From IMG/VR virus record IMGVR_UViG_3300022602_002833, positions 1-45,266 of that record: a DNA stretch of 45,266 nucleotides. The stretch is one strand, 5' to 3'. The notes under the pieces are model-generated. The model saw nothing but the letters and a program-made list of their open reading frames with translations. It ran no database searches and was not told the origin of the DNA. A program made the translations under genes and the position numbers. The DNA comes from a virus. Below are positions 9,288-45,193 of the stretch, piece after piece; the first letter of the stretch is position 1, and every line of letters begins with the position of its first letter.

Positions 9288-10176
9288 TCAATTCACCTAG
9301 GTGTAAAAATTTATGCAGACCTAATCGATTAATTCCGGTGCCTCTTTGATATTGCGGAAATTTATTCGAATAGTCGAGGCCAAACAGCACAGTATCACTT
9401 ACAACAATATCAAGTTGTTTACAAAATTTTATCTGAGTTTCTTTATATTTTTTAACTATATAATCGGGACTAAAATTCTTTATAAATTCTAATCCTATTG
9501 TTGCTCCTAGTCTATTTGTGTATAAATTTTTATCATACACAAATAAAGAATCATCATCGTTCGTTCGGGTCAATCTCATACCTATACGGGCATGAGCTAC
9601 CGGAAATACTTTACTAAGGCTAAAAACTATATCTGTAATACAATCAAAATTAAAATTAAATTCTATGTTGGAACATATTCCATAATATGCACAGTCTAAT
9701 AATACCGGAATATTAAGACGTGAACATTGATCAAGGATACTCTCCATCTGTGGATGTACTGTTCCTGTGTCTGCAAAGGGTAAACTAATTACTATAGCAT
9801 CATTAGTTGTTAGCGTAGCATCTTCTATAAATTTCCAATCAGGCCAGCTGTTGCGCCAAGACAATTGGTGATACATATATTCGCCTTTGAAACATCTGAA
9901 TCTTCTATTTCTGTTCTTAATATAAAATTTATCAAACGATTCGCTGGTACCATTTGAGTAACATAGATTTTGAAATTGTTCTAACCCGACTATTGTATTA
10001 AGTTTGCCCAAACTAATCCATTTTAGATACTCTGAACAAAAGTTATCTTTGATATCAAGGTCATACAACGATTCGTATAGATTAAAATCTATGCTGTCTA
10101 ATAACCGTAGTGCATATGGATCTAGTATGGCGGAACTATGACCAAATGGTAGATTACTCCTATCTGTATGATGCAT
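9280..10176 (-). CDS. PLP-dependent fold-type I enzyme (aminotransferase-like)
   Basis: A 298-residue protein with the pyridoxal-phosphate core of fold type I: D161 in LLDCAYYG contacts the pyridine nitrogen, and K189 in FSLSKVFP is the Schiff-base lysine, followed by HARIGMRL. It is short for an aminotransferase (usually ~380-400), with reduced N- and C-terminal regions. It is paralogous to the gene at 20544, sharing an RxFK/GDYRYH-like segment, LPFADTGTVHP or WPFPSTGDTHV, and the SLSK motif. Its start shares TAATG with the upstream oxygenase gene. An amination upstream of the amidinotransferase two genes away is an attractive but unproven role. Confidence 0.75.
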   Translation of the reverse strand: MHHTDRSNLPFGHSSAILDPYALRLLDSIDFNLYESLYDLDIKDNFCSEYLKWISLGKLNTIVGLEQFQNLCYSNGTSESFDKFYIKNRNRRFRCFKGEYMYHQLSWRNSWPDWKFIEDATLTTNDAIVISLPFADTGTVHPQMESILDQCSRLNIPVLLDCAYYGICSNIEFNFNFDCITDIVFSLSKVFPVAHARIGMRLTRTNDDDSLFVYDKNLYTNRLGATIGLEFIKNFSPDYIVKKYKETQIKFCKQLDIVVSDTVLFGLDYSNKFPQYQRGTGINRLGLHKFLHLGELNV

Positions 10177-10835
10177 TATCTGTAACCTTGAAAATGAAAA
10201 AGGTAATAATCTTGAAGACTAGAATTAGCCGCGGAGTGATAGGCTTTTACACTATCCCATTCCCATATATCCCCCTTCTTTTCCTTAAAAAATGTTTCAT
10301 TCCTAAAACTTAAAGTTTGCCCTGGCACAGGATCCTGCATAAAACATACAAATCTAACATGTTCTCCTAGACCATCGTAGTCGGATACATCGGGCAATAC
10401 ATCATAATGCCAGGGAGCAAATTTTCCCGGATGCAGTCTTGTTATAGAAACTCTATAAGGAATAGGAGTAACATTTACAATCTTGGCAAATCTATCTCCT
10501 AATTGTTTAACTAGCTCAAATTCTTCATAACGATAGTCGCCCCAGTCGATTTCTGAATATTTGTATCCGGCCGAAATCCAATCTTCTAAAACTCTATTAG
10601 TTTGTATTTCTAATTTTTTTACAAATTCGTAATCTTTATTTTTATACATATTACCAAAGTAAACTGCCTTCTGTTCTTTGTATCTTGTGATTGCTATGCG
10701 TTCATTTTCTTCGATACTAAGGCTTATATCGTATGCACTTGGATCTCCTACGCCTGCGGCAGGATTTAGGTCTTTTACCGAATCTATGACATGATCCCAA
10801 TTTATTATTTCAGAACAGTTAGCTATGTATTTCAT
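10176..10835 (-). CDS. 2OG-Fe(II) oxygenase, Asp/Asn beta-hydroxylase-like
   Basis: A 219-residue protein. The triad is H143-x-D145 (PGKFAPWHYD) and H200 (WDSVKAYHSAANSS). The RLHPGKF..WHxD / GDIWEWD..xxH pattern matches aspartyl/asparaginyl beta-hydroxylase-like phage proteins. It opens with MKYIANCSEIINWD, a start shared in recognisable form with the genes at 27305, 27858 and 13736, which marks one paralogous set. It is the first gene of the leftward operon; its ATG follows a late-type box by 4 nt with no Shine-Dalgarno. Expected chemistry is hydroxylation of a protein side chain or small molecule. Confidence 0.75.
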   Translation of the reverse strand: MKYIANCSEIINWDHVIDSVKDLNPAAGVGDPSAYDISLSIEENERIAITRYKEQKAVYFGNMYKNKDYEFVKKLEIQTNRVLEDWISAGYKYSEIDWGDYRYEEFELVKQLGDRFAKIVNVTPIPYRVSITRLHPGKFAPWHYDVLPDVSDYDGLGEHVRFVCFMQDPVPGQTLSFRNETFFKEKKGDIWEWDSVKAYHSAANSSLQDYYLFHFQGYR

Positions 10836-10839
10836 ATTG

Positions 10840-10847
10840 ATATTTAA
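10840..10847 (-). promoter_or_regulatory. Late-type promoter box 4 nt before ATG (leaderless)
   Basis: Read leftward the sequence is TTAAATAT-CAAT-ATG, where ATG is the start at 10835. The box resembles T4 late TATAAATA. With T4 spacing, transcription would begin at or next to the ATG. No Shine-Dalgarno is present. Confidence 0.5.
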
Positions 10848-20532: not shown

Positions 20533-20544
20533 TAAATACTTATA
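20532..20544. promoter_or_regulatory. Divergent pair of late-type boxes, each 4 nt before an ATG
   Basis: Rightward: TTAAATAC (20532-20539), TTAT, ATG at 20544. Leftward: TATAAGTA (20544-20537), TTTA, ATG at 20532. The two boxes overlap within 13 bp, and both transcripts would be leaderless. This is the most compact divergent promoter in the window. Confidence 0.6.
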
Positions 20545-24179: not shown

Positions 24180-25060
24180 CAAGTAGGTATCCTCATCAAG
24201 GTAGTATTAAAATTGAATGGAATCTTGGTAAACGCTGTAACTATGATTGTAGTTATTGCCCTAGCGAGATACACGACAATACAAGTCCGCACACTGATAT
24301 AGAAATACTAAAACATACAGTAGACAAATTAGTAGCACTGAACAAACCTATACGTTTGAGTTTCACAGGCGGCGAGCCTACAGTACATCCTAAGTTTTCA
24401 GAACTAATAAAATACTGTAATCATGTCGGTATTAGTTGGATTAGTGTAACAACTAACGGAACTTTGCCTTATGAATTTTACATTACACTTCCTGTAGATC
24501 AATTTGTGTTTAGTATTCATTTAGAATATGACTGGCAACGTGTATTCAATACAGTAGAAAGCATACGTAAACTATCAGATGCAAAAGTTATTGCACAAAT
24601 TATGGCCCATCATGATCATATGCCTGCTGTGATTCAACTACGTGCTAAATGTTTGCTAGGAAAGATTCCCAATACAGTAAGACGGATACGATGGACAAAG
24701 GGCGATCACGACTTATTTGATGATATGAGATATAATGCTAATGATTTAGATTGGCTGAAAGAAATGGAATCTACGGTGGAAGCAAACTGTATTATTGATG
24801 ACGATAAGAAAATGCATGCCAATGATATTATTAAACTTCATCTAAACAAGTACAAAGATTGGTCATGTAGCGCAGGTATAGAAAGCCTAATGATAAATTG
24901 GGACGGTGATGTACACAGAGCGACTTGTAGAGTCGGTGGTAGTCTTGGCAACATTTATGAAGGTAGCTTCGTTGTCCCTAGCGAACCCGTAACTTGTGAC
25001 CGTAATTTCTGTACCTGCGCTTCAGATATCCCTTTGACTAAAATTTCACCCAATAAATAA
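24167..25060 (+). CDS. Radical SAM/SPASM-like protein
   Basis: 297 residues. The motif is C24-x3-C28-x2-C31 (KRCNYDCSYC), followed by LSFTGGEPTVHP (GGEP), VTTNGT, and a C-terminal Cys cluster: WSCSAGIESLM, HRATCRVGGSLGNI, then TCDRNFCTCASDI. The C-terminal pattern C-x-A-G-x-E-S-L is shared with the gene at 29921 and, in altered form, with 33996, defining a third radical SAM subfamily in the island. It is 4 nt before the amidinotransferase-like gene. Confidence 0.85.
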   Translation: MLKITSRYPHQGSIKIEWNLGKRCNYDCSYCPSEIHDNTSPHTDIEILKHTVDKLVALNKPIRLSFTGGEPTVHPKFSELIKYCNHVGISWISVTTNGTLPYEFYITLPVDQFVFSIHLEYDWQRVFNTVESIRKLSDAKVIAQIMAHHDHMPAVIQLRAKCLLGKIPNTVRRIRWTKGDHDLFDDMRYNANDLDWLKEMESTVEANCIIDDDKKMHANDIIKLHLNKYKDWSCSAGIESLMINWDGDVHRATCRVGGSLGNIYEGSFVVPSEPVTCDRNFCTCASDIPLTKISPNK

Positions 25061-25064
25061 CACT

Positions 25065-26237
25065 ATGATTAAAATTAATAGCTGGGACGAATTTCAACCT
25101 TTAGAGGCGCTTGTTGTGGGTAGTACCTACGATAGTTCTTTCTTTGACGGAGTCAAGAATAAAGAAATAGGCGATGTATTGAAACGTATTGTTGACGAAA
25201 CAAACGAAGATATCGACTATTTCAAAACTCAACTACAATCACATAATATCAAAATATTTCAAGCTACACCAAAAGAATTAGGATATAAAGACAGCATTTT
25301 AGATTATTGCGATGTAAATGGAAGAATTGGTTACGGTAGTGATAATCCGCTATTAACTAAGGCTAGTCTTATTCCGACAAGTCCATTGCAAGTCAGAGAT
25401 GATAGCATAGTTATGGGTAATAAGATATTGATCACTGATAAAACTTTTGAAGTAGAAGGTTATACGAAAAAGTTTATCGAATGGTTTGGTGAAGATCAAG
25501 TAGATCTTACAATCTATAACGGTAATTTTGTATTTCCACAAACAAGAGAAAATTTAGCAGAATGTCTTAAAGAACGCAATGTTGATATCAATACATTATC
25601 TGAACAAGAAATAGAAAAAATTATAAATGATTGGGTATTAGTAGGGTTTTGTAGTCCAAACTTGACACGTATCGGTAAAAAATGTCTTGTAGATCTACAC
25701 CAGACTGCGGAGATAAAAAACTTTTTAGAAAAATATTATCCAGTATTTGATTACGAAACTCTTATGCTAGGCGGACATAACGATAGTATCTTTAGTATTG
25801 TTAAACCTGGCACTGTAATATGTGGTCCTTGGATTAAAGGGCAAGAAGGAAATTTCAAAGATTGGGATATAATATATTTTAACGATCCAAGATGGGATGG
25901 AGTAAGAGGTTGGTTAGACTTGCGCAAGAAAAATAAAGGCAAGTGGTGGGTCCCCGGTGAAGAACGTAACGATGAGTTTACAAATTTTGTAGAAACGTTT
26001 TTAACTAATTGGACAGGTTATGTCGAGGAGACTATTTTTGACATTAACACTTTAGTCATCGATGATCGCCATGTTGTAATAAACAGTAATAGTCCAGAGT
26101 TAATAAAACTATTAGAAGACAAAGGTATGACTCCTATAATTTGTCCATTAAGGCATAGATTTTTCTGGGACGGCGGATGGCATTGTTGTACACTAGATGT
26201 GAGTCGCAAAGGCGGGCAAAATGACTACGGACTATGA
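25065..26237 (+). CDS. Amidinotransferase-family protein with altered catalytic triad
   Basis: 390 residues, clearly of the AGAT/StrB1 fold: an N-terminal SWDEFQPLEALVVG, LMLGGHNDSIFS with H238, and DGGWHCCTLDVSRKGG with C374. The position of the catalytic Asp in the FDAxN motif reads F-C196-S-P-N, so Asp is replaced by Cys while Asn, Arg202 and the following Gly are kept. Two insertions relative to the gene at 7108 lie at residues ~75-160 and ~275-300. It may act on a different guanidino compound or be a hydrolase or deiminase. It overlaps the next small gene by 17 bp. Confidence 0.8.
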   Translation: MIKINSWDEFQPLEALVVGSTYDSSFFDGVKNKEIGDVLKRIVDETNEDIDYFKTQLQSHNIKIFQATPKELGYKDSILDYCDVNGRIGYGSDNPLLTKASLIPTSPLQVRDDSIVMGNKILITDKTFEVEGYTKKFIEWFGEDQVDLTIYNGNFVFPQTRENLAECLKERNVDINTLSEQEIEKIINDWVLVGFCSPNLTRIGKKCLVDLHQTAEIKNFLEKYYPVFDYETLMLGGHNDSIFSIVKPGTVICGPWIKGQEGNFKDWDIIYFNDPRWDGVRGWLDLRKKNKGKWWVPGEERNDEFTNFVETFLTNWTGYVEETIFDINTLVIDDRHVVINSNSPELIKLLEDKGMTPIICPLRHRFFWDGGWHCCTLDVSRKGGQNDYGL

Positions 26238-33209: not shown

Positions 33210-34006
33210 AAGTTTAATTTCTTTGCTATCAGTACTGCCGCATTATAGGCAGTTTTTATCCCCGAGTGCATCATGTCTCTAGAGAAGTCGGCAGGTTGAT
33301 CCTTGAGAAATTTATCTATAAGATTATATCCTGCCGTGTGTACATGATCCACATTAAGAACCGATGCTGTATTTTCATGCCAGGACGCCTCACAATAAGC
33401 ACATCTATCTTCCCAAAGTTGCCTTGTTATCTTTGATATAAACACAGCATTTAATTCGGCATGATATTTATTTTTGTTCCAAATATCCATAAGATCGTTA
33501 GGTTCAAGATTCCACGCACCTAAATGTTCTACATAAGTTTTTTCATATCTTGTTATTCTGTCTAATTCAGGCCATGCCATAATTACTCCCCTTGGAGTCG
33601 GATACGCATCTCTAAGTATAGAGGAATTATGAAAATTAAAAAACATCGATGATCCGCCTACTCCCATATTAACAACAGGTAATCCTAGGATATTTTCTAT
33701 CTGACTGGATACAGTATCTTTATCATCTAAACCTACGCCTAATACATGGGAACAACCAAAGATAACCACCGAGTTAGCCCAATCGATGTTGTTAAACTCT
33801 TGAGTTCTATAACCTTCGGAATTAAAAGTGTAGGTCACTGAATGTGTTCTATAGTGCCAATCCGGTGGTTGTTTTTTTAAGTTTTCCTTATAACGGTTTT
33901 CTGTATCAGTACCTGACCAATATTTTGTACTATCATTGTCGCCCGGCAAAAACTTATTTGCATTAATTTTCGATCGTATAGTATATGAGAACAATTTATT
34001 CAGCAT
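33206..34006 (-). CDS. SGNH/GDSL-type hydrolase-like protein
   Basis: 266 residues. VVIFGCSHVLG holds the nucleophile S86 (GDSL block read as GCSH), VVNMGVGGSS resembles the Gly/Asn oxyanion block, and DFSRDMMHSG gives D244 and H247 near the C-terminus. NSEGYR near residue 62 is also common in this group of esterases and acyltransferases. Such enzymes add or remove O-acyl groups on glycans. No signal peptide. It overlaps the radical SAM gene upstream by 11 bp. Confidence 0.7.
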   Translation of the reverse strand: MLNKLFSYTIRSKINANKFLPGDNDSTKYWSGTDTENRYKENLKKQPPDWHYRTHSVTYTFNSEGYRTQEFNNIDWANSVVIFGCSHVLGVGLDDKDTVSSQIENILGLPVVNMGVGGSSMFFNFHNSSILRDAYPTPRGVIMAWPELDRITRYEKTYVEHLGAWNLEPNDLMDIWNKNKYHAELNAVFISKITRQLWEDRCAYCEASWHENTASVLNVDHVHTAGYNLIDKFLKDQPADFSRDMMHSGIKTAYNAAVLIAKKLNL

Positions 34007-34961
34007 TTTTTATCTTTGGTATTTTGCTATCAGCGCTACTGACACATCTATCAGTTACGCAAAGTCTAGGGGCGGAAAACAAAGTAAATTTTTCTATCGT
34101 TCCCAAACTTTCTTCCTTGCAACTGTATGCTCGTTTTACTTCGTTACCTCTTATTATAACACTCTGATAGCCACTATTGCAAGTCCATCCGGCAAACTGA
34201 TTGAAACCTAATGCATTAAATCTTTCTGCTTGATCGATATAGTAATCTTGCTCGCCGTCGGTAAGTCTTATTTGAAACCCTTCCTGTTGCTCAAAATCAT
34301 TCTGCATGATATCAATCATCTCAGGCGTATAACCATCTACTATGGCTGTGGCAGTATCGTTACTCTGCGGTTTGAGTGTTACGTTGATACCACGCTCTCG
34401 CAGGCGATTACAACGTTCTAATGTTTCATAAAACAGTGCCGGCACCATAACTTGGTTAACTGTTACGTGTACACGTTCGTACATTAGTTGTAAACACTTG
34501 TCTCCAAACTCTTGCTCTTTGGCAAACTCTGCGTGAAAACTGGCCGTAATACTTCTACGCTGTAGACAGTCAGAAACATCGCACCAATTCTTCCACCATT
34601 TTGATCCTGGCGACAAATTGGTTGTCATATGGATACTTTGGTAAGAACTTTTGGTTTCATCCAAGTGTTTGATTAGTTTGGGAAGATCTTTATAGGCTGT
34701 TGGCTCGCCTCCACTAAAACTCCAGTGGAATTGGGTAAATCCGTTCAAACCGGCTTGACGTTTTATCTCATCTACTGTAGACTTATATACTTCTAAAGTT
34801 TGGTAATCCAAACTATCACTTCTAGCATAGGGCCAACAGTATGAGCATTTATAGTTACAAAATCTGCCCAATATCCAACTAATGTTAAATAATGGATGAT
34901 CCAACATAGTCTGTTGTCCAAATTTGATTATTTTCGAAAACGGTATGTTAGAGAATTCCAT
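33996..34961 (-). CDS. Radical SAM protein, first gene of the long leftward operon
   Basis: 321 residues. The motif is C35-x3-C39-x2-C42 (GRFCNYKCSYC), followed by HWSFSGGEPTAY (GGEP), HMTTNL and the C-terminal cysteines WTCNSGYQSV, AYSCKEESLG and LCVTDRCVSS, a divergent version of the pattern at 24167 and 29921. Its ATG at 34961 is head-to-head with the RNA gene; leftward the box TGTAAATA lies 6 nt upstream and there is no Shine-Dalgarno. It heads a run of 13 leftward genes. Confidence 0.85.
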   Translation of the reverse strand: MEFSNIPFSKIIKFGQQTMLDHPLFNISWILGRFCNYKCSYCWPYARSDSLDYQTLEVYKSTVDEIKRQAGLNGFTQFHWSFSGGEPTAYKDLPKLIKHLDETKSSYQSIHMTTNLSPGSKWWKNWCDVSDCLQRRSITASFHAEFAKEQEFGDKCLQLMYERVHVTVNQVMVPALFYETLERCNRLRERGINVTLKPQSNDTATAIVDGYTPEMIDIMQNDFEQQEGFQIRLTDGEQDYYIDQAERFNALGFNQFAGWTCNSGYQSVIIRGNEVKRAYSCKEESLGTIEKFTLFSAPRLCVTDRCVSSADSKIPKIKNAE

Positions 34962-34989
34962 TGACAGTATTTACACGAGGTGTTATAAT
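34961..34989 (+). promoter_or_regulatory. Consensus sigma70 promoter for the tRNA-like RNA
   Basis: TTGACA at 34961-34966, a 17-nt spacer, and TATAAT at 34984-34989: a perfect match to the host housekeeping consensus. The predicted start, ~7 nt on, coincides with the first base of the acceptor stem at 34996. The -35 overlaps the start codon of the leftward radical SAM gene by one base, so the two units could interfere. Confidence 0.85.
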
Positions 34990-34995
34990 ATATAC

Positions 34996-35113
34996 GTGGA
35001 CGTGAGTGTAACTTGGTAAACCTCCTCCTAGTAAGCTGTTCCCCAGCTGAACGGAGGGAACGGGTCTAGCTCATTGAGTGACTTTGAAGGTTCGAATCCT
35101 TCCGTCCACACCA
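34996..35113 (+). tRNA. Atypical 118-nt tRNA-like RNA with encoded CCA
   Basis: The ends are those of a tRNA: a perfect 7-bp acceptor stem (GTGGACG with CGTCCAC), a perfect 5-bp T stem around the loop TTCGAAT (35091-35097), discriminator A and encoded CCA at 35111-35113, then five T residues. A D-loop-like AACTTGGTA is at 35010-35018. The centre is abnormal: 83 nt lie between the acceptor and T stems instead of ~41-55. It holds a hairpin AGCT-GTTCCCC-AGCT (35034-35048), which would give anticodon UCC (Gly) but with C at position 37. An outer helix CCTCC/GGAGG (35024-35028 with 35053-35057) surrounds it, and a variable-arm-like region follows at 35064-35082. It could be a tRNA with an insertion, a decayed tRNA or a tRNA mimic. 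No long intron is present. Confidence 0.55.
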
Positions 35114-35140
35114 TTTTTAACTTAGGCAACAGAAGGCAAT

Positions 35141-35488
35141 ATGAAAAAAACGTTACTAGTGTTAGCAGTTGTTTCGTCTAATGTGTTTGCATACACAGAA
35201 GATCCACATCATGCATTTGATATGACCCATAATGAAGTCAATTCATTTCAGGTTACTTTTCAAGTAGCAAATGATGTCAATGCCGCATGCGTGGCCGCAA
35301 GTAAGAAGCGTGGTGGTGGTGGGTTTGGCTATAGGGTAGATGCCTGTAGCTTCTGGGACGATACAGTATCAGGACGTAAATGCACAGTGATCACACAACC
35401 TAGCGCCAATTTCCATACTATCGGTCATGAGATCAGACATTGTTTGCAAGGTGTATTTCATGATGCTTACGGTGAAATCAAAAGATGA
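35141..35488 (+). CDS. Small secreted zincin-like protein
   Basis: 115 residues. MKKTLLVLAVVSSNVFA is a clean signal peptide with likely cleavage after residue 17. The mature part has four cysteines (50, 69, 81, 101), which could form two disulfides in the periplasm. IGHEIRHCLQGVFH gives H96-E97-x-x-H100 with H107 as a possible third zinc ligand. This suggests a mini metallopeptidase acting on an envelope substrate, perhaps peptidoglycan or host proteins. It overlaps the next gene by ATGA. Confidence 0.65.
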   Translation: MKKTLLVLAVVSSNVFAYTEDPHHAFDMTHNEVNSFQVTFQVANDVNAACVAASKKRGGGGFGYRVDACSFWDDTVSGRKCTVITQPSANFHTIGHEIRHCLQGVFHDAYGEIKR

Positions 35489-36018
35489 AAAAAGTAGCAA
35501 GCAGTCCCGAACGACATACCTTTCAAAAAGAAGGGTATATCAAACGTTGTGAGAAAGAAGGCAAAGAACCCAATTCCGACTATGTGGCCATGTACAAGAC
35601 TTGGCGTGAACAGGATGAGGAGAATCTAAAAGACCCTATGTGGCAAAAGAACAATATGGAATATGATCTACGTAGTTCCAAAGAACTATGCGACAAAGTC
35701 AAACAGTCGGATAACTACGCTCAAAACTTATATGCGGCCATGTGTAACATGACTTGGCAAAGCAGAGAGTTTTGGCAGGAAATGAAAGGTGAAACTTGGT
35801 CTTGCTCTTGGCGTCACTCTGGCGGTATAATTGCCGATATGCGTGAAGAAGGTGATTACATCGATTGGTATTGTAGCGGTATCGGCGGAGGCCTTGGTAA
35901 TGGAGATGAAGAGGGTACTAAAGGCTATGTACCAGAAGGTGTAGTCACTGAAGAAATTGAATTGGACTTGAACCGTTTGGGGTGGAGACCAGTTCCTTAT
36001 GAGGATGACGAAGTTTAA
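35485..36018 (+). CDS. Conserved T4-like phage protein of unknown function
   Basis: 177 residues. The central part (QNLYAAMCNMTWQSREFW, then WSCSWRHSGGIIADM, DYIDWYCSGIG and GYVPEGVVTEEI) matches from memory a protein carried by many T4-like marine phages, whose role is unknown. It is soluble, Trp-rich, with an acidic C-terminus. It is coupled to the upstream secreted protein and followed by a late-type box. Confidence 0.7.
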   Translation: MKKVASSPERHTFQKEGYIKRCEKEGKEPNSDYVAMYKTWREQDEENLKDPMWQKNNMEYDLRSSKELCDKVKQSDNYAQNLYAAMCNMTWQSREFWQEMKGETWSCSWRHSGGIIADMREEGDYIDWYCSGIGGGLGNGDEEGTKGYVPEGVVTEEIELDLNRLGWRPVPYEDDEV

Positions 36019-36020
36019 GG

Positions 36021-36028
36021 TTAAATAT
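36021..36028 (+). promoter_or_regulatory. Late-type promoter box 4 nt before ATG (leaderless)
   Basis: TTAAATAT, then TTAT, then ATG at 36033; it differs from the box before 20544 in a single base. No Shine-Dalgarno lies between box and start. It would drive the AbrB-like gene and IF-1. Confidence 0.6.
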
Positions 36029-36032
36029 TTAT

Positions 36033-36203
36033 ATGGCTAGATGGACTGTAACAGTTGAAGAAGCAGATGATAGTAGTGGAGATTTGGTTATCCCATTGCC
36101 TCAAGAACTTCTCGACCTTCAAGGATGGGTAGAAGGAGATACATTAGAATGGGAGAAAGCTGACGATGGATCTTGGATTATTTCAAAAGTAAAAGATGAG
36201 TAA
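36033..36203 (+). CDS. AbrB/SpoVT-like small DNA-binding protein
   Basis: 56 residues. The sequence opens MARWTVTVEE, continues GDLVIPLPQELLDLQGW, then EGDTLEWEKADDGSWII. This is the swapped-hairpin AbrB pattern (I-P-x-E-x-x-x-x-G-W-x-x-G-D) in a form I associate with T4-like cyanophages. It probably binds DNA as a dimer. It overlaps the IF-1 gene by 8 bp, so both come from one transcript. Confidence 0.75.
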   Translation: MARWTVTVEEADDSSGDLVIPLPQELLDLQGWVEGDTLEWEKADDGSWIISKVKDE

Positions 36204-36417
36204 CAAAGACGATATACTAGAACTAACAGGCACTGTTGAAGAAGTACTACCGGGCAATATGTTTAGAGTTAAGGTAGAAAATATGGACAAACCACTGTTA
36301 TGTTATTTAGGTGGTAAATTGAAACAAAACAAGATAAGGATCATACTCGGCGACGAAGTGCAGATAGAAGTCAGCGTCTATGATCTGAGCAAGGGCAGAA
36401 TAACTTATAGGTTATAA
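36196..36417 (+). CDS. infA: Translation initiation factor IF-1
   Basis: 73 residues, the full length of bacterial IF-1. Signature segments are ELTGTVEEVLPGNMFRVKVEN, GGKLKQNKIRIILGDEV and the closing YDLSKGRITYRL. These match the bacterial S1-type OB fold that binds the ribosomal A site of the 30S subunit. The first residues (MSNKDDILEL) are phage-like rather than a copy of a typical host gene. A phage copy is uncommon and may retune initiation on the 30S subunit during infection. Confidence 0.93.
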   Translation: MSNKDDILELTGTVEEVLPGNMFRVKVENMDKPLLCYLGGKLKQNKIRIILGDEVQIEVSVYDLSKGRITYRL

Positions 36418-36418
36418 A

Positions 36419-37087
36419 ATGAATATAATTCTCGAACGTGTTTTTAACGTATGCAAGGAAGTTCGAGAACAAAGCCCCGAGCAGACCAATTTCAAAAAGA
36501 TAATCAATCGTACTAGAAAAACTTTCAAGCGTCACGAATTCGATATATCAATTAAAACTAAAAGAGACAAGACTTTAGATAATGACAAATGGTATGTCAT
36601 GGCCTTTTATGACAGCGAGAATGATTATCATAATGAAACAGCCATCGAAGTCATTGTATATCACAATCTAGACGGCACTGAGAAATTTGGGCAACATCAA
36701 ACTGTATTATTTCTTACAGAAATTTTCGATGCTGTTGTACATGAATTTCGGCACCAATATCAAAGTATGCGTAGAGACTTTGCCGAATTTAATCCCAGAG
36801 CTCCTTATAACGGTGCATATGAACAATACCTAGCAGATCAAGACGAACTAGATGCCTATGCATTTAGTATTGCTATCGAACTATTAAGAGTGATGGATAG
36901 ATCTCGTGCTATGAGAAATCTAAGTAGAATCTCTATAATGAGCAAGATGCGTACTGGCTCGGTCTATTCTAGCCCAACCTTACGTGCCTATATAGACCAT
37001 TTTGGACTAAATCCTTTGACGAAAAAATTAGCCAAAAAAATCTATCAACATCTAGAAACGATTGACAAGCGATTGGTTTTCATGTAA
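36419..37087 (+). CDS. Zincin-like metallopeptidase domain protein
   Basis: 222 residues, starting 1 nt after the IF-1 stop. VVHEFRHQYQS holds H108-E109-x-x-H112, and ADQDELDAYAFS ~30 residues later supplies acidic residues (D142, E143) that could complete the zinc site, as in gluzincin-type enzymes. There is no signal peptide, so it would act in the cytoplasm or in the virion. The remaining sequence is not recognised. The next promoter lies in its last codons. Confidence 0.65.
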   Translation: MNIILERVFNVCKEVREQSPEQTNFKKIINRTRKTFKRHEFDISIKTKRDKTLDNDKWYVMAFYDSENDYHNETAIEVIVYHNLDGTEKFGQHQTVLFLTEIFDAVVHEFRHQYQSMRRDFAEFNPRAPYNGAYEQYLADQDELDAYAFSIAIELLRVMDRSRAMRNLSRISIMSKMRTGSVYSSPTLRAYIDHFGLNPLTKKLAKKIYQHLETIDKRLVFM

Positions 37088-44398: not shown

Positions 44399-44603
44399 CG
44401 AAATTGAACTAATAGAAATGGCTCGAGATTATGAAGCCATGGAGCGTCAAGCACTACAGGACGCAGAAGAATTGCGTCAATTACGAGACGGTGAACGTAT
44501 TATTGTTCCTGTAGATATCGAGCATGCCCGCACAATGTTCAAATTGGCTAGTTACTATCTTAGCCAACACGACAAAGAATTTACTTTAACAATGGAGAAA
44601 TAA
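44388..44603 (+). CDS. Small helical protein of 71 residues
   Basis: The ATG at 44388 overlaps the previous gene by 11 bp; the stop shares TAATG with clpP. The sequence is helical and acidic ([24 protein letters not shown]), then [21 protein letters not shown]. Not recognised. Its coupling to clpP could mean a regulatory or adaptor role. Confidence 0.6.
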
Positions 44604-45193
44604 TGCCAACCTTAGTGCCAATGGTAATCGAGCAAGAAGCTCGAGGAGAACGTAGTTACGACATTTATAGTCGTCTACTTAAAGATCGTATCGTTATGTT
44701 AGATACAGATGTAAATGAACATTCAGCAAGTTTAATCGTAGCACAGCTACTTTTCTTAGAAAGTCAAGGCAATGAAGATATTAACTTTTTCATTAATAGC
44801 CCTGGCGGTGTTGTTACCGCTGGCATGGCAATTTACGATACAATTCAGTTCATAAAACCAGATGTATCGACCATCGTTATGGGACAGGCTTGCTCAATGG
44901 GTAGTTTACTCGCCACTGCTGGCGCTCCTGGCAAACGCAAGATTCTACCTAACGCTCGCCACATGATTCATCAACCTAGCGGTGGTGCTGGAGGACAAGC
45001 TACAGACATGGAAATCCAAGTAAAGGAAATCCTAAAGATGAAACAAAGTCTTACACAAATTTATGTAAACCACAATAGCAAAGGTAAGACATTTGAAGAG
45101 TTTTATACAGCCATGGAACGTGACAATTTCATGACAGCACAGGAAGCTGTAGATTTTGGACTAGTTGACGAGATCGTTACTAAACGCTCTTAA
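44603..45193 (+). CDS. clpP: ATP-dependent Clp protease proteolytic subunit ClpP
   Basis: 196 residues, the length of mature bacterial ClpP. The triad is S98 ([10 protein letters not shown]), H123 ([10 protein letters not shown]) and D174 (MERDNFM), with the NSPGG strand at 65-69. The first residues ([23 protein letters not shown]) match the mature N-terminus of host ClpP, so no propeptide is needed. It would form a 14-subunit chamber and needs a ClpX/A-type unfoldase, presumably from the host, or it might form mixed rings with host ClpP. Its last 4 bp overlap the convergent gene. Confidence 0.95.

Follow-up and report, generated by a model that had tools for sequence, protein, structure and literature searches.

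The window analyzed here, the whole 45,266-base fragment of a virus genome, encodes a translation initiation factor IF-1 in an operon that appears to begin with a leaderless message made from a T4-type late promoter, and the same promoter layout recurs at many genes of related phages. Our best explanation of the whole, to which we give somewhat better than even chances, is that IF-1 is made late in infection from a leaderless, gp55-type late operon, acts on the host 30S subunit, and raises initiation on late phage messages. Catalogs of phage translation factors exist, yet there is little idea of which messages such factors would favor. Since these genomes carry a bimodal start-site architecture, the steering of ribosomes between leadered and leaderless messages would be directly testable with a 73-aa protein. 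For a specialist, the surprise would lie in the leaderless late class, whose combination with IF-1 gives a clean test.

The window encodes an IF-1 of a separate viral lineage

The IF-1 gene and its surroundings are laid out as follows.

33996-34961, minus strand: divergent radical-SAM gene, present in 67 of the 79 loci that reach it
35485..36018, plus strand: 177-aa protein (p177), conserved upstream neighbor (79/79 loci)
36022..36027, plus strand: TAAATA, core of a T4-type late promoter; 6 nt separate its last A from the ATG at 36033, the position of the predicted +1
36033..36203, plus strand: AbrB/MazE-like protein, 56 aa, first gene of the operon (PF04014, PHROG 661)
36196..36417, plus strand: translation initiation factor IF-1, 73 aa, full length
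36419..37087, plus strand: protein of 222 aa containing HEFRH, an HExxH motif; its gene immediately follows IF-1; homologue in 65/65 loci reaching it
44603-45193: head-maturation protease, near the right end of the window

The product of 36196-36417 is a genuine IF-1 by sequence and predicted fold, as an earlier note on this DNA had proposed. It matched Pfam PF01176 over positions 2-64 of the 64-position profile (65 bits against a curated cutoff of 30.2; E = 4.8e-18) and PHROG 30201 (E = 1.2e-21), which the PHROG library lists as of unknown function, and a sequence search recovered solved IF-1 structures down to E = 3e-20. The 14 best PDB matches of an AlphaFold2 model (pLDDT 79.9) were all IF-1; E. 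coli IF1 on the 30S subunit was matched with a TM score of 0.79, Thermus IF1 on the 30S was also among the matches, and the fold matches included 1hr0 and 9fco, both IF-1 on 30S. In an alignment of 36 phage and bacterial IF-1s, the invariant residues were kept here (G12, L18, P19, Y62, D63, L64, K66, G67, R68, and R72 among others), and R48 was nearly invariant. This invariant core includes R46, R66, and R70 (numbered as in E. coli, counting Met), which were kept; among the residues compared for 30S binding, H30, R41, and the basic residue at the C terminus were altered. The whole viral clade carries replacements of H30, A34, R41, and the C-terminal K/R at otherwise conserved IF-1 sites, as well as a one-residue loop insertion after N28, and because conserved sites are altered, affinity for the 30S could differ.

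The changed 30S-side residues could also point off the ribosome, to an OB-fold protein that serves as an RNA chaperone, in transcription antitermination, or as a regulator, perhaps together with the AbrB-like protein. Bacterial IF1 has RNA-chaperone-like activity, and the neighboring gene encodes a predicted DNA-binding protein. However, the whole clade retains the residues that never vary among ribosome-binding IF-1s, and the viral IF-1s are under strong purifying selection, with a median dN/dS of 0.046 over 138 usable pairs, most pairs being saturated at synonymous sites. We regard such a role as very improbable.

Close relatives of this IF-1 were present on 369 IMG/VR viral contig stretches, of which the best 80 were 77-100% identical, and IF-1 itself was found in 73/73 loci that reach its position. 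Among INPHARED phages, 36 records matched, each at <60% identity; the carriers that look genuine are Phosso (469 kb), the Lak phages, Bacteroides DAC/SJC phages, and two uncultured huge phages. The Acinetobacter MD-2021a record was rejected as a phage, being host chromosome in which truA, leuB, leuD, and ansA surround infA, and unverified wastewater contigs of Staphylococcus, Enterococcus, and Listeria, which look like host chromosome, were not counted as phage evidence. We note that CAKLQH020000005.1 and similar INPHARED records are host chromosome and inflate counts of phage-encoded infA. No near-identical DNA was found among cultured phages. IF1 and IF3 were listed among huge-phage genes by Al-Shayeb et al. 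in 2020 (PMC7162821). Phage-borne IF-1 is not new, and in this lake-phage group it is not rare; with 369 contigs carrying relatives and the 2020 report of huge phages, the earlier view that IF-1 is rarely seen in phages does not hold.

A phylogeny against bacterial IF-1s, which the earlier note had called for, was built from 93 rows. The viral clade was monophyletic (100/100) with a long stem and grouped with betaproteobacterial IF-1s (88/87, an open fork in a tree of 72 columns that is weak beyond monophyly), and the other phage IF-1s (Lak, Phosso, DAC) were placed elsewhere. The best bacterial proteins were 47-57% identical to the phage protein. Recent capture from a host is ruled out by this 57% ceiling together with the monophyly and long stem of the viral clade, and a single origin of all phage IF-1s was borderline rejected (p-AU 0.049, on only 72 columns). 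As a phage IF-1 the gene is of a known kind, within which it represents a new lineage.

IF-1 is coupled to an AbrB-like gene behind a probable late promoter

The first gene of the operon matched PF04014 weakly (24.1 bits, just under the 24.7 cutoff; E = 3.6e-5) and PHROG 661 (E = 5.1e-15), in line with the earlier description of an AbrB-like gene ahead of IF-1. A homologue was present in 68/76 loci that reach its place. In the window the IF-1 start overlaps the end of the AbrB-like frame by 8 nt, and a similarly tight junction, in which the ATG of IF-1 overlaps or directly adjoins the stop of the AbrB-like gene (-11, -8, -4, or -1), was seen in 54 of 55 distinct relatives. None of the 55 had a Shine-Dalgarno (SD)-like sequence before IF-1, and the window gene also lacks one. 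The gene for the HExxH protein is probably part of the same operon.

The script located TAAATA 5-6 nt before the AbrB-like gene in 45 of 55 distinct upstreams. Inspection by eye gave the same spacing in another three, where the gene start had been called wrongly, and a clear TAAATA was absent at the AbrB start in 4/55 relatives. The AbrB-like/IF-1 operon thus appears to start with leaderless spacing in nearly all relatives. A TAAATA 6 nt before the ATG stands at the distance from which T4 late promoters start, so the earlier wording of a leaderless-type promoter was fair: the core is a conserved T4-type late promoter core used in the same way at many genes. The phage context assumed earlier is likewise sound, given a viral record and the head-maturation protease.

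Two further observations concern the window. ARAGORN and Rfam called no tRNA in it, and a tRNA-like 3′ end (a T-arm, then CCA) lies uncalled by either upstream of the operon, at 35000-35115. Positions 1-35000 hold an extended island in which genes for radical-SAM, amidinotransferase, methyltransferase, and sugar-modifying proteins are unusually numerous.

The late promoter core occurs in two spacing classes

In G004, the 265,680-base relative, no hexamer was more strongly enriched ahead of ATG starts than TAAATA (51 of 262 ATG genes, 3.2 expected). Reading frames were called with a simple longest-ORF script that accepted any in-frame ATG within the first 30 codons as a possible start, and spacing was measured from the last A of TAAATA to the ATG. 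Pooled over six contigs (the window, G004, G016, G017, G001, and G006; G003 was left out as it shares its IF-1 sequence with G004 and is not independent), the distances were bimodal: 79 genes had the core at 5-8 nt and about 106 had it at 15-30 nt, with 5 in the interval of 9-14 nt between them. Against expectations derived from the genome-wide TAAATA frequency, the 5-8-nt counts were 5 vs 0.13 in the window, 31 vs 0.66 in G004, 4 vs 0.14 in G001, 6 vs 0.19 in G006, 21 vs 0.96 in G016, and 12 vs 0.32 in G017. Besides the operon promoter, the short-class sites in the window were these.

10841..10846, minus strand: TAAATA, leaderless class, 6 nt before the ATG at 10835 (gene 10176-10835, minus strand)
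20533..20538, plus strand: TAAATA, leaderless class, 6 nt before the ATG at 20544
25054..25059, plus strand: TAAATA, leaderless class, 6 nt before the ATG at 25065
34968..34973, minus strand: TAAATA, leaderless class, 7 nt before the ATG of the radical-SAM gene

The T4 late TATAAATA spans -13 to -6 (PMC1524935), which places +1 at 6 nt past the last A and, in the short class, on the AUG to within two bases. In the leadered class, A was enriched around the predicted start positions, as expected for a start site, and in G004 an SD-like sequence was present in 26 of 33 long-class leaders. Short-class starts were ATG-specific, with 81 ATG vs 1 GTG/TTG, compared with 108 vs 19 in the leadered class. 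Promoter geometry and this ATG-specificity suggest that short-class AUGs lie at, or within a few nucleotides of, the 5′ end.

It is also conceivable, though unlikely, that the short-spaced TAAATA acts as a signal for translation or reflects composition, the genes being read from longer upstream transcripts, and many genes do overlap or abut the gene before them. However, the same hexamer heads the leadered class at 15-30 nt, where an SD is present, and neither the gap at 9-14 nt nor the ATG-specificity fits such an origin. Other hexamers of the same letters were not enriched to this degree: in the group, TAAATA was the top hexamer 5-8 nt before ATG (81, followed by AAGGAG with 77), and the counts for the other 14 arrangements of its letters ranged between 3 and 34, the top ones coming from this very site read in a shifted register. 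The class was also kept between orthologues. Short spacing was retained in 94/109 distinct upstreams of orthologues of G004 short-class genes and in 39/40 for the radical-SAM gene; orthologues of G004 leadered-class genes had long spacing in 37 cases, short in 1, and none in 34. Finally, the gp55 late sigma factor (PHROG 12791) is encoded in G016 (E = 1.7e-72) and G017 (E = 5.5e-76). It was not found in the window or G004, both fragments; G004 also lacks DNA polymerase B, which marks it as a fragment.

Six comparator phages together had 10 TAAATA at 5-8 nt among 3519 ATGs: none in T4 and CBB, 1 in X1, 2 in PA5oct (2.5 expected), 2 in Phosso (0.43 expected), and 5 in P-SSM2 (0.87 expected). The class is at or near background in T4, PA5oct, CBB, X1, and Phosso. 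In the cyanophage P-SSM2 (AY939844), which is without IF-1, TAAATA lies exactly 6 nt before the ATG in 4 genes, possibly a weak leaderless late class. A leaderless late-promoter class would affect gene calling and expression models for abundant lake viruses.

The carriers are T4-type jumbo phages with a translation kit

The virus belongs to a group of T4-type jumbo phages, with fragments of up to 345 kb (G016, 345,369 bases). The G004 terminase is T4-type and nearest to those of PA5oct (52%) and Phosso (51%); a Pfam search for gp23 gave no match, but no positive control matched either. About 30 tRNAs are encoded in G004 and 29 in G016, each of which also carries a tmRNA, and ribosomal protein bS21 is encoded in G003, G004, and G016.

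G004 172450-172869 (L170:12450-12869) and G016 283032-283475: permuted (two-piece) tmRNA, tag ends ANDAEFAIAA / ANDAEFALAA
G004 153166-153321 and G016 303984-304139: bS21 gene, close behind another gene, then a sigma70-like promoter
G004 154358-156271: DnaK of the phage, sharing 64-67% identity with DnaK from records that carry the labels Pseudomonas, Salmonella, and Acinetobacter

The permuted G004 tmRNA is of betaproteobacterial type (RF01850, 118.5 bits). Because of this tmRNA type and the position of IF-1 in the tree, the host is probably a betaproteobacterium. IF-3 (PF00707) was absent from all eight group records searched, in which the controls matched. A phage tRNA-Met considered for an initiator role has the acceptor C1:U72 mismatch, and by eye the three G:C pairs are absent.

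Proposed role of the phage IF-1

We propose that a T4-type late promoter, dependent on gp55, drives the operon with its +1 on the AUG of the AbrB-like gene, which would make the messenger leaderless, and that translation of IF-1 proceeds by coupling, with termination at the overlapping AbrB stop followed by reinitiation. The protein would be made late in infection and bind host 30S subunits at the A site, and the same promoter layout would drive several dozen other late genes. Beside bS21, about 30 tRNAs, and tmRNA, the extra IF-1 would most likely raise initiation on late phage messages, leaderless ones included. The identity and conservation of IF-1, the coupling, the TAAATA spacing class, and gp55 in the group are the elements read from sequence.

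That the phage IF-1 preferentially helps leaderless messages is plausible and the weakest part of this proposal. According to a review (PMC9031893), leaderless translation in vitro is promoted by IF1 as well as IF2 and inhibited when IF3 is raised, and 70S scanning, the way in which coupled cistrons are read, is strongly stimulated by IF1. Adding IF-1 but not IF-3 would fit a push toward the leaderless and 70S-scanning modes, and the IF-1 gene itself may be expressed through both the leaderless and the coupled mode. A more elaborate scheme, a dual late program in which gp55 promoter spacing sets a leadered SD class beside a leaderless one and the phage's own IF-1 and bS21 shift host ribosomes to the latter, strikes us as less likely than not.

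The main rival to our best explanation, to which we give about one chance in three, is that phage IF-1 supplements or replaces host IF-1 and boosts all initiation, the leaderless class being real and unrelated. Phosso, Lak, and Bacteroides DAC phages carry IF-1, and the tRNAs, tmRNA, and bS21 of the group make up a general translation kit. Phosso has IF-1 without the leaderless class, so a phage IF-1 does not require that class. We know of no system in which IF-1 is specific for leaderless messages. What such a dosage effect leaves unexplained is why nearly all relatives have IF-1 in a coupled operon that lacks an SD and opens with a predicted leaderless start, although this may be a positional accident. 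We favor the reading in which IF-1, made late from this operon, raises initiation on late messages.

Comparison with known systems

The phage protein resembles bacterial IF-1 (infA; PF01176) in its full-length OB-fold of 73 aa, its invariant core, and the motif YDLSKGRI; the viral clade differs in being at most 57% identical, in its one-residue loop insertion, and in the replacement of H30, A34, R41, and the C-terminal basic residue. The huge phages of Al-Shayeb et al. (PMC7162821) also encode initiation factors, proposed there to redirect host translation. In contrast to their IF1/IF3, the present gene belongs to a T4-type group, to an IF-1 lineage apart from those of Lak, Phosso, and DAC, and to a predicted leaderless late operon. 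The freshwater phages described with bS21 (PMC9723584) are likewise lake phages of about 300 kb with many tRNAs; the report gives Bacteroidetes hosts and leaves IF-1 unmentioned, whereas the beta-type tmRNA and IF-1 tree of this group point to Betaproteobacteria.

The late promoters share the TATAAATA-type core with the gp55-dependent late promoters of T4, and a gp55 homologue is encoded in two contigs of the group. They differ in forming two spacing classes, of which the 5-8-nt class is absent in T4 and CBB. Within the limited collection of phage literature searched, T4-like phages and cyanophages included, no leaderless late-promoter class was described, and to that extent the leaderless late-gene class looks new. 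Like known leaderless mRNAs, for example that of lambda cI (PMC9031893), its messages would have AUG, and AUG only, at or next to the predicted 5′ end and no SD. Unlike the lambda cI type, which concerns a single regulator gene, the arrangement predicted here extends genome-wide through a T4-type late program.
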